From contig DCGE01000123.1 in NCBI GenBank assembly GCA_002314525.1, forward strand, positions 290-5,946: a stretch of DNA of 5,657 nucleotides, in the 5' to 3' direction. Positions 1 through 5,657 of this stretch are shown here, piece by piece. The translations under genes and the position numbers were made by a program. Within the stretch, counting starts at the first letter, position 1. Each line of letters starts with the position of its first letter. This DNA is from Prevotellaceae bacterium UBA1786 (lineage in GTDB: Bacteria; Bacteroidota; Bacteroidia; Bacteroidales; Bacteroidaceae). The notes under the pieces were generated by a model. That model ran no database searches. It was not told the origin of the DNA and saw nothing but the letters and a program-made list of their open reading frames with translations.

Positions 1-2908
1 GGCGATGGAGCTGTGCACGGCTGATTCCCACTTCCTCACAGAGTTTCTCTATGGAGAAATCCTTTTCACCCAGATGTCTGTTGATACAGTCCATCAAGCG
101 TTGCATGAACTGATCTTCATAGTCCACCGCCTCCACATCTTTCTGCTTGTCTTCCTGAAGGAGCTGGTCCTGGTAGGTGTTCTTCAACTGCTGACGGAGC
201 ATGATGAGGTTGATGATGGTCTGGCGCAGAATCTTGATATTGAAGGGCTTCGTTATGTATGCATCAGCGCCGATACCTAACCCCTGCAGTGTCGATTCTT
301 CATCGGCACGTGCTGTGAGCAGCACGACGGGTATGTGTGCTAACTTGATATTCTTCTTCAGTCGCCTGCACAGCGTTATCCCATCCATCTCAGGCATCGT
401 CACGTCGCTGATGATGGCATCGGGCTGTTTCTGGAAAATAAGGGTGAGTGCCTCCTTGCCGTTGGCAGCCTCACGCACATGATAGTCGGGAGACAACTGC
501 TCACACAGGTATCTTCGCACTTCGTTATCATCCTCCACGATGACAAGCTGACGGGTGGTGCGCGACTGTTTCCTGTCGTTACTGTCACCATCACCTTCAT
601 CGATTTCCACTGTCTCGATAGGGCCGATAGGCTCCTCCTCGGTAGCTTGTGCGGCAAGGCTCTGCAGTTTTTCGGCACTGCGCAGCATCATCCTATAGGT
701 CTTCTGCCTCTCCTCGTCCTTTTCATCGTCAATAAGCTGGATGAGTGGACTGATGATGAGCGACATCGGAGTGCGAATCTTGTGGGAAATAAGTGCCAGT
801 GCCTTTACCTTCTCTCTGCTGCGTATCCAGAAGTAGAGCAACGTGGCTATTGTGACGACAACAAGACATATGAGACACTTTACCCACAGACTCCCCCACC
901 ACGGATGTCGCACCTCTATGCTCACCTCCTCTGCTTCAGAACGCCTTCCGTTGTATTCCACCGCATACCGAAGTTTGTGGATACCAGCATCAAGGTTGCT
1001 GAACGACACAATATGTCCTCCGTCGGGGATGGAGATCCAGTTTCCACCATCCATCGAGTAACAATAAGTACACTCGGCAGGACGGTCAATTTCTGCAGCA
1101 GAGATCTCTACACTGAATGAGTTGTTCTCGTAGGCGATGCTGAAGCGATGTGCATCGAATACTGGTGCATCCACTACAGGCTTGCCGCCTGTGAAGGTAT
1201 TGACGTTTACAGGCACATCGTTTATATACAATGCCGTGATACGAGGGTGAAGGTTGTACTTTATCTGACTTACATTACTTGCGGAGAAATAAGTCACTCC
1301 TTCATGACCACCAAACCACAAGCTTCCGTCCTTTGCCTTTTGCACAGCTCCCTTCGAAAATTCATTACTCTGCAGACCGTCTCGTACGGAATAGTTAGTA
1401 AATATGCCTTCGTGTTCGTCGAAACAAGACAGACCGGAATTGGAGGAGAACCACAACTTTCCATTCACATCCTCATTGATGGCAAATACCGTATTCGATG
1501 ACATACCGTCAGCAGTAGTGTATATCTTTTGTTTGCCCTTGTTGAGAACAACAAGTCCTTCCGACGATCCCAACCACAGACGTTCCTTCCTATCTTCGAA
1601 GATGGAATATACGATGAGTTTCGGACACAGATGTTCTGGTTTGCTGATGTTGAACACGCCGTTGAATGTACCTGCAAGCACATCACCATTCGATAGAACA
1701 TACAGACAGTTTACGTAGTTGTTGATACCTTCATACTCAATATGCTTCATCGTTTTGTCACGACGGCTGTAACAATACACACCGTGACCCATTGTGCCCA
1801 ACCATACATTCTGCTCATGGTCTTCCTTTATGGAGAATACGCGTGGCAGGACTGGAAGTCCTTTGACCTCACTAAACGAACCATTCACACCCTTATAGCA
1901 TGGATAGTTGTACGAGCCCACCCACAGCGTACCTTCCGAATCTTCCAGCAGGGTATTTATCATAGGTGCTATGCCTTCTGTAAAATGTCTGCTCTTTCCG
2001 TTATTCACATAATACAAGCCATCACCATCGGTACCAATCCACATACCACCATCACGGCTTTCCTCCAGAGCCTGGACACAATGCGAACCTATAATATCCT
2101 GCTGTGTGCTTTTTGCGCCTAAGTATCCGAACATACTTTTCTGCCAGGACACCATCACGACACCTCTCTGATAGAGAGCAAGCCACAGATTGCCCCTCCT
2201 GTCTCGCATCAGATGATGCACTTTCTGCAATTTCTGAGGAATATCAGGAATATCGAGTGGCATGTTTTCTATAGTCTTTCCCTTCTCATTGTACAACTTA
2301 ACGCCATCCCCGTCAGTACCAAGAAGCAGATGGTTATCATCATAACGCATCTTGGAACGGAAATTCATATTTTGTGGCAGTTCTTCAGGAAATTCATTGG
2401 AGAAATAAGGTGTTTTCATCTTGCGTATTAAGAGTCTGTCCCTGTCTTCCGTCAGTATCTCGCAGAATACATCACCTATTCCATACAGTCTTCCGTCCTT
2501 CTCAAGCAGCAGATTGCTGATATTTGCCTTCATCGTCTTCCCATCTGAAAACTTAGCTCTCGGAGAGAAATCGTCCGTATCATACCTGTATATCTGCATT
2601 CCGCTGTATGTGCTGACAATCAGATTCCCATACCTGTCTTCATTCAGGGTACTTACATAATTGCTTGCTAACGAGTTATCTTCACCTTCCAGATGTTTGT
2701 ATGAGGTAATCTTCACACCATCATAACGGTTCAGCCCATCCTCCGTTGCTATCCAAATCTGTCCATACCTATCCTCGAACACACAGTTGACCAAACTGCT
2801 CGTCAGACCGTTCTCAGTCGAGAATAGCCTGTAGTTCTGACCGTAGCTCCCTACGGACAACACCTCCTGAAGCAACAGAAGCACGAAGAAAGCAATGCAT
2901 CTTATCAT
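1..2908 (-). CDS. HTCS-type regulator lacking the HATPase_c domain; C-terminus cut by window edge
   Basis: Membrane-spanning sensor and transcription regulator of the hybrid two-component (HTCS) type that controls glycan-use loci in Bacteroidota. The frame is open from ATG 2908 to the left edge (969 residues). An in-frame TAA at 2941-2939, with no start codon between, fixes this start. Seen in order: signal peptide 1-23; two-component-regulator propeller repeats about 30-545, with recurring EDxxGxLWxGTxxGL patterns (residues 44-58, 286-298, 321-332, 437-451); Y_Y_Y domain about 595-666; one membrane helix 674-694; short histidine-box segment (H709) about 705-755; acidic linker 756-785; receiver 786-900 with E792/D793/D794, phospho-acceptor D835, T865 and K887; AraC-type helix-turn-helix from about 932, cut at 969, lacking roughly its last 70 residues. 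No HATPase_c domain occurs, and the residue after H709 is lysine rather than glutamate. Family assignment is firm. Ligand and target promoters cannot be read here; the neighbouring glycan genes are the likely targets. Confidence 0.95.
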   Translation of the reverse strand, partial: MIRCIAFFVLLLLQEVLSVGSYGQNYRLFSTENGLTSSLVNCVFEDRYGQIWIATEDGLNRYDGVKITSYKHLEGEDNSLASNYVSTLNEDRYGNLIVSTYSGMQIYRYDTDDFSPRAKFSDGKTMKANISNLLLEKDGRLYGIGDVFCEILTEDRDRLLIRKMKTPYFSNEFPEELPQNMNFRSKMRYDDNHLLLGTDGDGVKLYNEKGKTIENMPLDIPDIPQKLQKVHHLMRDRRGNLWLALYQRGVVMVSWQKSMFGYLGAKSTQQDIIGSHCVQALEESRDGGMWIGTDGDGLYYVNNGKSRHFTEGIAPMINTLLEDSEGTLWVGSYNYPCYKGVNGSFSEVKGLPVLPRVFSIKEDHEQNVWLGTMGHGVYCYSRRDKTMKHIEYEGINNYVNCLYVLSNGDVLAGTFNGVFNISKPEHLCPKLIVYSIFEDRKERLWLGSSEGLVVLNKGKQKIYTTADGMSSNTVFAINEDVNGKLWFSSNSGLSCFDEHEGIFTNYSVRDGLQSNEFSKGAVQKAKDGSLWFGGHEGVTYFSASNVSQIKYNLHPRITALYINDVPVNVNTFTGGKPVVDAPVFDAHRFSIAYENNSFSVEISAAEIDRPAECTYCYSMDGGNWISIPDGGHIVSFSNLDAGIHKLRYAVEYNGRRSEAEEVSIEVRHPWWGSLWVKCLICLVVVTIATLLYFWIRSREKVKALALISHKIRTPMSLIISPLIQLIDDEKDEERQKTYRMMLRSAEKLQSLAAQATEEEPIGPIETVEIDEGDGDSNDRKQSRTTRQLVIVEDDNEVRRYLCEQLSPDYHVREAANGKEALTLIFQKQPDAIISDVTMPEMDGITLCRRLKKNIKLAHIPVVLLTARADEESTLQGLGIGADAYITKPFNIKILRQTIINLIMLRQQLKNTYQDQLLQEDKQKDVEAVDYEDQFMQRLMDCINRHLGEKDFSIEKLCEEVGISRAQLHR
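554..646 (-). other. Acidic linker in place of the HATPase_c kinase domain
   Basis: Residues 755-785 of the regulator join the end of the histidine-box helix pair (KLQSLAAQ) directly to the receiver, which begins at RQLVIVEDD. The stretch is rich in Glu and Asp (TEEEP, VEIDEGDGDSND) and looks disordered. In ordinary HTCS proteins more than 100 residues of HATPase_c domain, with N, G1 and G2 boxes, lie here. None of those motifs is visible, and the space is too small in any frame to encode them. The frame is uninterrupted, so this looks like a clean in-frame domain loss, not a frameshift. Confidence 0.85.
827..889 (-). other. Transmembrane helix of the regulator
   Basis: Residues 674-694 of the regulator form a single hydrophobic stretch (LWVKCLICLVVVTIATLLYF and one more residue), bounded by basic residues R696, R698 and K700 on the cytoplasmic side. 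It separates the exported propeller and Y_Y_Y sensor from the cytoplasmic histidine box, receiver and DNA-binding parts. With the N-terminal signal peptide it gives the usual HTCS topology. Only about 14 residues lie between its end and H709, shorter than the coiled linker usual in this family. Confidence 0.85.
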
Positions 2909-2974: not shown

Positions 2975-4381
2975 TCACACTTCTATCACCACTCTTGCAT
3001 AGGAGACGAGTGTGAAGGGGCCGTTGTCATGTACTTCGCATACTACATGAATCTTGCATCCTTTGGCATCTTGTGGTATTTTCACCGTGGCCTTGCCATT
3101 ATGGTATTCTCGTATCGCGATGGCTGAAGACTGAATAGACGAGGCTTCCTCCTGTATCCACCAACGGAACTCAAGATTGTCCCCATCTCTGTCTATTGAC
3201 TTGGAAGCATCGAGACTGATTTCTGAACCTGCTTTTGCCCTTATGATGATTGGCTTGATGCTCTGCCGTCCGTTGATACGAACTATTGGATTCGTGTTTC
3301 CCCTGCCTTCCTCGGCCCACTGCATCCTGCTACAGAAATCATTCAATTCGTCAGGGTAGAATCGCCGCTTATATCCTTCAGTAATCTCTTTCTGGCGTGT
3401 CTCCCAGCTCGTCCAAGCCTTGGTGACGTTGTCAGGCGCAGTTCCCCATTGATGACATCCAGCCCATCCGGCTTGAGTAGGATCTTCCGGGTCACTAAGC
3501 CCATTCGGCAATACATACAGGAAAGACGGCGTATCGCCCTCAACTCCCCATTTGTAGTTTGGGTAGATGCGTCCTAACTCACCCTTGCCCTGTATGAAGG
3601 TCCGGTGCTTCTGCCAGTTCTGCTTACCTAAGTCACACTGCAGTTGCCATGTACCCTCATCCCAGATGAATTTCAGGTCGTCACTGAATTCCCGGCGAAG
3701 CCATTGGTGGGAACTATAAGCGCGATTCGCACGCATAGCATAGACCATATCCTGGTCGGTGATGGTATATATCCGGAACTTGTGTAGGAAAGCCTTCAAC
3801 TGTTCTCTGGTACGGGTTTGACTGACTTTCCATATAGCTTGTGCAAGGGTATTGCCACTACCCCAAGCCGCTACCCAAATAGGACGGTTATCATCTTCAT
3901 CAGCCAGACGGATAAGGAACTCGCTGCCTTCGCTGTCATTATCCTTGCCTATCACTCCTATTCCTGCTTTGTGACTTCCTGCCATACACCTGGAACGAAT
4001 ATAGTTGACGCTTGGCCAGTAGCCTATTCTCTGCCGTCCGTTTTCCTTGCCAAGCGAAAGGAATGATGTCTGTCCGGAACGCTTCATCAGATTCTCTACA
4101 TCCTTGCCGTATGCATCTACCACCATGGTTAGATATTTCGTCCATTCTTCTGGGTATGGGTCGCAGTTCCACCCTACTGTAGTCATCACAGCCTCGATCT
4201 CAAACATGTCAGCGTATGCCATCAAGTGTATGGCTGACTCCATATCGTCGGGTTCAACATTACAGTCGCCAATATCTGTCATAACGACAAGGCGAGGTTT
4301 CCATTCGCCCTGTCTAGCAGCATTTGCCACACAGCACAAAAGCAGCATGGTCAGCAGCAATGTCAGTCTCCTATACTTCAT
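2975..4381 (-). CDS. DUF1593 / Sde182-like secreted protein with nucleoside-hydrolase-like fold
   Basis: Complete 468-residue exported protein of the DUF1593 family, named after the cellulose-binding protein Sde182 of Saccharophagus degradans. The enzymatic activity is not established. Residues 1-21 are a signal peptide (TLLLTMLLLCCVANA, cleavage likely after A21); no good lipobox is visible. The nucleoside-hydrolase-like domain covers about 28-310. Its N-terminal motif TDIGDCNVEPDD (35-46) corresponds to the Asp-rich metal and ribose site of nucleoside hydrolases. AAWGSGNTLAQAIW (171-184) and GDTPSFLYVLPNGLSDPE (282-299) are further family signatures. The C-terminal beta domain (about 366-468) has a PKD-like pattern, SLDASKSIDRDGDNLEFRWW. 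The start lies seven bases after the GH2 stop, which implies one transcript. An AGGA lies 13 bases before the ATG, too far to be a strong ribosome site. It probably acts on or binds a glycan or glycoside outside the cytoplasm alongside the GH2 enzyme; substrate unknown. Confidence 0.93.
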   Translation of the reverse strand: MKYRRLTLLLTMLLLCCVANAARQGEWKPRLVVMTDIGDCNVEPDDMESAIHLMAYADMFEIEAVMTTVGWNCDPYPEEWTKYLTMVVDAYGKDVENLMKRSGQTSFLSLGKENGRQRIGYWPSVNYIRSRCMAGSHKAGIGVIGKDNDSEGSEFLIRLADEDDNRPIWVAAWGSGNTLAQAIWKVSQTRTREQLKAFLHKFRIYTITDQDMVYAMRANRAYSSHQWLRREFSDDLKFIWDEGTWQLQCDLGKQNWQKHRTFIQGKGELGRIYPNYKWGVEGDTPSFLYVLPNGLSDPEDPTQAGWAGCHQWGTAPDNVTKAWTSWETRQKEITEGYKRRFYPDELNDFCSRMQWAEEGRGNTNPIVRINGRQSIKPIIIRAKAGSEISLDASKSIDRDGDNLEFRWWIQEEASSIQSSAIAIREYHNGKATVKIPQDAKGCKIHVVCEVHDNGPFTLVSYARVVIEV

Positions 4382-4388
4382 TGTTTAT

Positions 4389-5657
4389 CTAATTTCCTAA
4401 CCGCAACTTATATTCAGCAGTCCTAAGGTTCGGTGACGTCACCTTGATGGTTACTTCGCCAGCCTCATCCTGAGGTTGTATTACAAGCAGTGCCTTTCCA
4501 CGGAAGGATTTCGGCGTAAGACTACGGAACGACTTCATGTCGAACGGATGGGCAGTGCCTCCAGTGGCGATATGCTTGACACCAGAAGTCTCAATCTTTA
4601 GAGGCAGTTCAGCTGTAGGACAGATGTTGCCGTCTTCATCAACCACATTTATATATATATACGCGAGGTCGTGGTGAGAAGCTGAAAGCTGTGAGTTCAG
4701 AGGTGAGAGTTGGATGGCTGCAGGAGCCTTCGCTGTATTGAACGAGATACTCGTCGGCATAGCGTTCTTTATCTTCTTGCCGGACACTATCTCGGCTTTC
4801 AGTTCGCCAGGTTCATATGCCACCCAAAACGAGGCAGTGAAGTTTTCTGGATTAACATCCTGCTCACCGATGACTCGGTTGTTGATGAGCAGTCTGACCC
4901 TCTTCTCTCGAGAATAGACATTCACGCGGAGGGAGTCACTGCGACGGGCATTGATATCGTGTCTGACAGCCCTGATGGTTGCCTCAATCTGGTAGTTTTC
5001 CGGACGGAGTTCGAAAGGCAGATAGCCTCCCCAGTTCCAGTGACGTTCCTCGGCTGTCCAACCCCAACCGCGCACCTCCTCGTGCTCACCCTCAGGTATG
5101 GCAGGACGCACGGCCATCTCAATATTGCTACGTCGCCATACTATGTCGCGGTAGTAAGACTGGGGCTTCTTCTCACCGGTAAGGTCGATGTCGCCGCACC
5201 AAGCGTTAAACCAAGGCCACGACATAAGCTGAACCCATGTATCATTGGTGCGTTCGAAGGTGTGTCCTACACCTGCCTCACCCAGATAGTCGATGGCAGT
5301 CCAAACAAAGTCGCCTATGATGTACGGATGGTTCTCAATGAATGTCCATGCACCGCCTATCGCACTCGGATAGTTCTCCGTTCCTACCATGATGCGCTCA
5401 GGATATGCCTCATGATCGCCTACGTAGTACTGCGATGCATAGTTGTAGCCACCAAGGTCCACATTCTCAAACGCACGATACGAGTCCTTCTCCCATACCT
5501 TGTTGGGCTTGTCCCAGTAATAACAGTTTGCCAAGGTGGTGGGACGTGTACTATCCTCATTCTTTATCACCTTGCAGAGGAGTTTCGCAATCTCCTGACC
5601 ACGAGGTTCGTCGCGTTGGTAGATCTCGTTGCCGATGCACCAGATGATGACACTCGG
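4389..5657 (-). CDS. Glycoside hydrolase family 2 enzyme (beta-galactosidase-like), C-terminal part
   Basis: The frame is open at the right edge, so the N-terminus (signal peptide, sugar-binding and Ig-like domains, first part of the barrel) lies outside the window; 422 residues are visible. The first residues, PSVIIWCIGNE, hold the GH2 acid/base glutamate (visible residue 11, codon 5627-5625). The nucleophile is probably E94 in VGTENYP (codon 5378-5376). The barrel continues through IGDFVWTAIDYLGEAG (114-129) and ends near CGDIDLTGEKKPQSYYRD (154-171). A DUF4982-like domain follows (about 195-310; LRVNVYS, YEPGELKAE), then a GH2 C-terminal Ig-like domain (about 313-420; DLAYIYINVVDEDGN, HPFDMKSF). 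This architecture is common in PUL beta-galactosidases, but relatives hydrolyse other beta-glycosides, so the substrate is not fixed. Its stop lies seven bases before the DUF1593 start. A GTG at 5570 lies inside the barrel and is not the start. Confidence 0.95.
   Translation of the reverse strand, partial: PSVIIWCIGNEIYQRDEPRGQEIAKLLCKVIKNEDSTRPTTLANCYYWDKPNKVWEKDSYRAFENVDLGGYNYASQYYVGDHEAYPERIMVGTENYPSAIGGAWTFIENHPYIIGDFVWTAIDYLGEAGVGHTFERTNDTWVQLMSWPWFNAWCGDIDLTGEKKPQSYYRDIVWRRSNIEMAVRPAIPEGEHEEVRGWGWTAEERHWNWGGYLPFELRPENYQIEATIRAVRHDINARRSDSLRVNVYSREKRVRLLINNRVIGEQDVNPENFTASFWVAYEPGELKAEIVSGKKIKNAMPTSISFNTAKAPAAIQLSPLNSQLSASHHDLAYIYINVVDEDGNICPTAELPLKIETSGVKHIATGGTAHPFDMKSFRSLTPKSFRGKALLVIQPQDEAGEVTIKVTSPNLRTAEYKLRLGN
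4677..4712 (-). repeat. Degenerate pyrimidine-rich tandem repeat inside the GH2 gene
   Basis: The minus strand reads CAACTCTCACCTCTGAACTC followed by ACAGCTTTCAGCTTCT, an imperfect repeat of about 18 bases. It encodes QLSPLNSQLSAS at visible residues 316-327, just before the conserved DLAYI strand of the C-terminal Ig-like domain. It resembles the AACTCTC-type low-complexity repeats seen in Prevotella and Bacteroides genomes, whose translation gives LNSQLS runs; that comparison is from memory. Being in frame and at a domain boundary, it is probably tolerated. Confidence 0.4.

Follow-up and report, generated by a model that had tools for sequence, protein, structure and literature searches.

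A clade of hybrid two-component system-derived regulators without a HATPase_c domain, and a possible ligand-gated phosphatase role for its histidine-bearing domain

Hybrid two-component systems (HTCSs) are regarded as self-contained kinases in glycan sensing. We analyzed a regulator gene in a 5,657-nucleotide stretch of Prevotellaceae bacterium UBA1786 (contig DCGE01000123.1, positions 290 to 5,946; the whole stretch is called the window) and found that its product has the HTCS order of propeller, one membrane helix, dimerization and histidine phosphotransfer domain (DHp), receiver (REC) and AraC-type DNA-binding domain (DBD), minus the HATPase_c catalytic domain. As HATPase_c is missing, we term the protein HTCS-derived rather than a full HTCS. 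Computation further places it in a clade with shared substitutions and a distinctive conservation pattern. Any mechanism must reconcile three observations: autokinase activity is impossible, the receiver active site and the DHp His and Thr are strongly kept, and the lock between receiver and DBD appears partly relaxed. Based on these residue patterns, we propose, with a probability of roughly 0.45, that the DHp, under control of a ligand, docks and dephosphorylates a receiver that obtains its phosphate elsewhere.

Absence of the catalytic domain across a clade

The regulator and its parts are laid out as follows (ORF, open reading frame; pLDDT, predicted local distance difference test):

2..2908, minus strand: kinase-less HTCS-type gene (residues 1-969 of ORF 2908..2; C-terminus beyond the window)
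905..2845, minus strand: sensor of Reg_prop beta-propellers and a Y_Y_Y-like domain (residues 22-668, boundaries per model)
821..889, minus strand: transmembrane helix (about residues 674-696, end placed by eye; runs into DHp helix 1 in the model)
641..820, minus strand: DHp, two helices (residues 697-756; HisKA 22.2 bits, below cut-off; helices seen in the model)
770..784, minus strand: H-box HKIRT (His709; Lys710, which is Glu or Asp in kinases; Thr713)
617..640, minus strand: clade motif EEEPIGPI (residues 757-764, end of DHp helix 2; kinases continue to HATPase_c here)
557..616, minus strand: variable linker before the receiver, acid-rich in the window protein (residues 765-784; identity 0.31; low pLDDT)
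194..556, minus strand: receiver domain (residues 785-905; D793, D835, T865, Y884, K887; Thr837 at D+2; Response_reg 91.1 bits)
329..340, minus strand: alpha3-beta4 loop AHIP (residues 857-860; position of the HTCS S/CHIP inhibitory motif)
2..124, minus strand: start of the AraC-type DBD (residues 929-969, domain cut by the window end; HTH_18 75.6 bits in P0001)

Pfam assigned to the window protein Reg_prop (seven stretches, 133.9 bits), Response_reg and a sub-threshold HisKA match (22.2 bits against a cut-off of 26.9; residues 702-751). A profile search for HATPase_c returned no match at E<=1 either for this protein or for P0001, a 1036-residue database protein that shows 4 differences over 969 residues from the window ORF and carries the full AraC domain. 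The 969-residue frame described in the original prediction is an unbroken ORF, although that length covers only the part inside the window. HATPase_c was likewise absent from the 13 families in the Pfam scan of P0001, from the top 25 of 54 families in a scan of 29 homologues (ranked by members matched, the last with 2 members) and from the precomputed domains of P0001 to P0028. Reg_prop and HTH_18 were present in 29/29 clade members, as was HisKA at E<=1, which fell under the Pfam cut-off in both the window protein and P0001; the window itself contains only part of the AraC-type domain.

The AlphaFold model (mean pLDDT 80.5, predicted template modeling score 0.56, DHp blocks mostly 50-70) contains helices at 674-728 and 732-756 and, after a stretch with pLDDT below 50 (758-782), receiver strands that start at 787; its membrane helix leads directly into DHp helix 1. 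Given these helix ends and the start of the receiver, an ATPase fold has no space, and a hidden or diverged HATPase_c was ruled out by this and by the Pfam result at E<=1. The original claim that the catalytic domain is missing therefore held up, while its description of the region needed correction: a second DHp helix is also present, on both model and HisKA evidence, in place of a short H-box alone, and the supposed 30 or so acidic residues between histidine box and receiver are an acid-rich linker in which 10 of 31 residues are Asp or Glu (residues 755-785, window 554-646 on the minus strand, running from where DHp helix 2 ends to where the receiver starts). The original prediction also passed over Lys at H+1, the raised conservation of the receiver and the apparent partial relaxation of the REC-DBD interface. 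The sensor matches structures 4a2l and 3v9f and the receiver-DBD part matches 12aw; in the fold comparison, all 50 entries among the matches listed lie on the sensor part and leave the cytoplasmic part uninformed.

The full-length search scored 7993 candidates, and we considered the best 120 of 4377 matches. Every one of the best-scoring 28 (50-100% identity) lacks HATPase_c (PF02518), so that no close homologue listed carries the full kinase domain. Lower down, P0031 and P0074 also lack it, P0030 has no receiver (see below), and the other 89 carry it, the best-scoring of these being P0029 at 39% identity. A search with residues 660-830 gave 46 proteins, 28 without HATPase_c and 18 with it. 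Searching with P0031 (best 120 of 236) recovered no further clade member, a weak negative in that known members were likewise unrecovered, and yielded two more HATPase-less HTCS-type proteins, P0150 and P0161. Several of the clusters represented are large, as with P0024 (1145 sequences), P0012 (268) and P0010 (225).

A quick tree was built from the last 270 residues of 113 proteins (29 from the clade, 3 further ones without HATPase_c and 81 with the kinase). In it, the 29 kinase-less members fell on one side of a single branch, with a support of 99 in the Shimodaira-Hasegawa-like approximate likelihood ratio test (SH-aLRT), inside the kinase-bearing HTCSs and adjoining P0029 (support 93); some distant rows had long branches. 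The three other HATPase-less proteins (P0074, P0150 and P0161) are HTCS-type, lie outside the clade and have Glu or Asp after the His. HATPase_c has therefore been lost more than once, and the 29-member clade is the only HATPase-less lineage here with many members. P0150 has an unusual loop following the phospho-Asp.

Two database entries were treated separately. P0027 differs from P0024 by a 115-residue in-frame deletion that takes out the DHp, the linker and the beginning of the receiver and has ALAL shared at its ends. P0027 is a strain variant or an assembly artefact; it was excluded from the alignment, tree, identity and divergence comparisons and appears in residue counts as a gap or a 30th member. 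P0030 (649 aa, propeller repeats and PF13087, no receiver) resembles a chimeric ORF and was excluded from every count save as an unparsed row. Scans for relatives gave two loci matching the receiver part only (26-33% identity) in genome contigs, and 0/50 confirmed pattern matches in viral contigs. On plasmids there were at least 30 matches; the 30 listed, from a set capped at 5000 records, are 22.7-27.4% identical, and their annotations mostly name hybrid kinases or propeller proteins.

Residues lost and kept

The DHp has lost the acid of its H-box and kept the phosphatase position. His709, Lys710 and Thr713 are each invariant in the 29 members having a DHp, with the Thr at H+4, whereas the H+1 residue is Glu in 99 and Asp in 3 of 102 kinase-bearing relatives. 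Among 239 parsed of 253 fetched proteins (14 unparsed), Lys at H+1 occurred only with a short His-to-Asp distance (29/29); two other short-distance proteins had Glu or Asp, and the 208 long-distance proteins had Glu (182) or Asp (26) and never Lys. According to PMC3510030, the HisKA kinases CrdS, HK853, HK4262 and HK1190 require the H+1 acid for kinase activity and can dispense with it for phosphatase activity, while in the same four enzymes the H+4 Thr or Asn is required for phosphatase and not for kinase activity. Read against these enzymes, the clade DHp has a predicted kinase-minus, phosphatase-plus residue pattern. With neither HATPase_c nor the H+1 acid, the protein is unable to autophosphorylate alone, in agreement with the original prediction.

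Around the H-box, the EEEPIGPI motif has a mean pairwise identity of 0.85 (minimum 0.25) across the 29 members, while linker residues 765-784 average 0.31. Counted from the aromatic-Trp pair that precedes the membrane helix, the His lies 39 residues further on in 28/28 parsed members; in kinase-bearing relatives this distance ranges from 37 to 87 and is most commonly 57 (65/155 parsed; 67/253 proteins unparsed overall). The membrane-to-His helix is thus 18 residues shorter than the commonest length, about five helical turns. Helical phase may have been kept despite the shortening, a weak point as this is one evolutionary event: the phase resultant length was 0.74 over 155 rows, 0.64 over distinct lengths 42-61 and 0.16 over all distinct lengths.

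The receiver keeps its active site. D835, T865, Y884 and K887 are present in 30/30 members and D793 in 29/29 of those having the region, and E/D792 and a small T+1 residue are also retained. In pseudo-receivers, T+1 is Ala or Gly in 43% instead of 74%, and the Y-T coupling pair is kept in 47% instead of 86% (PMC12632262); the window receiver has none of the hallmarks listed there. Two positions that tune phosphorylation kinetics (PMC12632262) have shifted: D+2 (residue 837, window 398-400) is Thr in 30/30 members versus Met in 98/102 kinase-bearing relatives, and T+2 is Arg in 30/30 versus Lys in 87/102.

The receiver is also unusually constrained. Mean pairwise identity in the clade is 0.81 for REC, 0.85 and 0.74 for DHp helices 1 and 2, 0.67 for the DBD and 0.59 for the propeller. 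At DBD identities of 0.60-0.65, receivers are on average 0.80 identical within the clade (122 pairs) versus 0.64 in kinase-bearing HTCSs (1099 pairs). The REC/DBD divergence ratio was 0.52 (29 rows) or 0.47 (26 rows) in the clade, and 1.11, 0.82, 1.01, 1.22 and 0.86 in five kinase-bearing clades chosen from the tree (58 rows; fork supports 82, 100, 95, 84 and 97). These are clade-to-clade contrasts with no p-value, and the pairs are not independent.

The interface between receiver and DBD appears partly relaxed around an invariant core. HTCSs have an inhibitory S/CHIP-D-K interface between these domains (PMC11253607), whose reported spacings (C to D 82, D to K 39) match the aligned solved chain 12aw; this alignment places the interface D at position 931 and the K at position 970. 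Position 931 is Glu in 14, Asp in 14 and Asn in 2 clade members (E931 in the window protein) versus Asp in 95/102 kinase-bearing relatives, and position 970, just past the window end and Arg in P0001, is Lys in 16, Arg in 13 and Asn in 1 versus Lys in 102/102. Most of these changes preserve charge. Position 857 is Ala in 28/30 and Ser in 2/30 members; it is a poor guide in this group because the relatives mostly have Asn (97/102), which is neither Ser nor Cys. The following His-Ile-Pro is present in 30/30 members, compared with H in 87, I in 85 and P in 102 of 102 kinase-bearing relatives. Three positions that line one side of the recognition helix (966, 970 and 974) differ among clade members, whereas kinase-bearing HTCSs show almost no variation there.

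Proposed mechanism and alternatives

We envisage an HTCS-derived family that has discarded the kinase half and retained DHp and receiver. Beyond the inner membrane, the propeller would detect a ligand, and the signal would travel through the membrane helix directly to the DHp dimer, which, having His and Thr with Lys replacing the catalytic acid, can take no part in autophosphorylation. Instead the DHp could dock the tethered receiver and act as its phosphatase, both gated by the ligand; the receiver may obtain its phosphate from another HTCS or kinase, or from acetyl phosphate. Ligand binding would alter the hold of the DHp on the receiver or its dephosphorylation, and with it the level of phosphorylated receiver and of active AraC dimer. 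Phosphatase activity, donor, ligand and direction of the switch are all predicted from sequence in this scheme.

Several points weigh against this proposal. The H+1 substitutions tested in the accessible part of PMC3510030 were Ala, Asp, Gln and Gly, none of them Lys. In mammalian cells, no phosphatase activity was apparent for the isolated DHp of EnvZ, although an earlier report had described it as a phosphatase (PMC8971529). The low REC/DBD ratio could come partly from a faster-evolving DBD, and REC could be conserved for a structural or partner-binding role instead. Finally, a relaxed REC-DBD motif would suit phosphorylation-independent DNA binding.

This last point leads to the main and close rival, possible though somewhat doubtful in our estimate: a membrane-tethered one-component switch independent of phosphorylation, in which the DHp dimer couples mechanically, docking or releasing the receiver, and movement driven by the ligand directly shifts the two AraC domains. 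In this reading Lys710 may stand in for a phosphate or metal contact with the acidic pocket of the receiver. The partly relaxed S/CHIP-D-K motif (Ala at 857, mixed residues at 931 and 970) and the variable recognition-helix positions fit such a switch, as does the shorter membrane-to-His helix if its phase is kept. Precedents are found in PMC11253607, where BT4124 with interface substitutions binds DNA independently of phosphorylation and BT4236 carries a natural Gln at the phospho-His position. However, none of the catalytic and Y-T coupling residues of the receiver varies among proteins down to 44% identity, and REC is the most conserved large domain, whereas an unused phosphorylation site should drift. 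His-Ile-Pro is also more strictly kept than in kinase-bearing relatives, the changes at 931 and 970 mostly keep charge, and position 857 carries little weight for the reason given above. The one-component switch thus explains the relaxed lock better than the phosphatase proposal does, and the kept active site worse. The same evidence bears on the original suggestion that propeller dimerization directly positions the AraC domains: the highly conserved receiver site argues against it, and the relaxed interface somewhat for it.

Improbable, in our view, is a heterodimer or relay in which a full-length HTCS or a separate kinase dimerizes with the DHp and phosphorylates His709 in trans, the phosphate then passing to Asp835. 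His709 and the DHp helices are preserved, promiscuous HTCS kinase-receiver pairing, attributed to tethering, has been reported (PMC11253607), and raised REC conservation could reflect an untethered partner. Yet the invariant Lys removes the acid needed for His phosphorylation in the four HisKA kinases (PMC3510030), and Pfam found no kinase domain in the three main window ORFs. Lys710 makes trans-phosphorylation of His709 less likely and suggests that the DHp has been kept for phosphatase action or docking. On the original idea that a kinase serves the receiver in trans, Lys710 argues against the route through His709.

A decaying gene or a sequencing or assembly deletion has a negligible chance, even though single ORFs can lose a domain in this way, as the deletion in P0027 illustrates: an H-box-to-phospho-Asp distance of 120-144 residues across 29 members makes an assembly deletion untenable, and the 28 kinase-less best matches, the clade with SH-aLRT 99 and the invariant functional residues refute both it and a pseudogene, the latter in agreement with the original prediction.

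Relation to known systems and implications

Two neighbors lie upstream of the regulator:

2975..4381, minus strand: Sde182 nucleoside-hydrolase-like protein (PF07632 224.1 bits, PF21027 81.2 bits)
4389..5657, minus strand: C-terminal part of a glycoside hydrolase family 2 (GH2) protein (PF18565 80.7 bits, PF16355 39.6 bits)

All three genes are on one strand, with 7 bases from the GH2 gene to the Sde182-like gene and 66 bases from the end of the latter to the regulator, and they possibly form one operon. The two genes preceding the regulator are consistent with glycan use.

The HTCSs of Bacteroides polysaccharide utilization loci (such as BT4663, BT3049 and BT4124) resemble the clade in carrying propeller, one membrane helix, DHp, receiver and AraC domain on one chain; the clade differs in having no HATPase_c, Lys at H+1, a shorter membrane-to-His helix and an apparently partly relaxed REC-DBD motif. 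Pseudo-histidine kinases such as DivL similarly lost kinase activity and kept a signaling role. DivL still carries its catalytic-type domain (the DivL chain 4q20 matches the HisKA-to-HATPase stretch of P0029) and differs from the clade, which lacks that domain and has a receiver and DBD fused in. The nearest precedent that we found, BT4236, is an HTCS whose phospho-His is replaced by Gln (PMC11253607): like the clade it is HTCS-type, cannot perform the normal His-to-Asp reaction and has a non-consensus REC-DBD motif, but there the His itself is changed and loss of the catalytic domain goes unmentioned in the accessible text, whereas the clade keeps the His and has lost the ATPase domain clade-wide. 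A DHp-only EnvZ (PMC8971529) and kinase-minus phosphatase variants of HisKA proteins (PMC3510030) likewise have a disabled kinase and a kept phosphatase Thr; these are laboratory constructs, whereas the clade is a natural tethered regulator. No earlier description of a kinase-less HTCS clade was found in titles and abstract openings of the open papers listed by searches on kinase-less HTCSs and on pseudo-histidine kinases, and to this extent the design appears undescribed, as first suggested.

A conserved kinase-free clade whose receiver is more constrained relative to its DBD suggests that kinase activity can be lost while residues of the phospho-chemistry remain under selection. More tentatively than for the role of the DHp itself, we propose that these proteins are natural membrane transcription factors that would sense ligand through gated dephosphorylation or release of their own tethered receiver, kinase-free and with phosphate from other kinases or acetyl phosphate. 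Such a natural kinase-minus, phosphatase-plus DHp offers a chance to ask whether a DHp alone regulates a receiver, and the scheme predicts integration of signals from other kinases or acetyl phosphate. If true, the usual HTCS logic would be inverted, from a ligand-gated kinase to a ligand-gated phosphatase.

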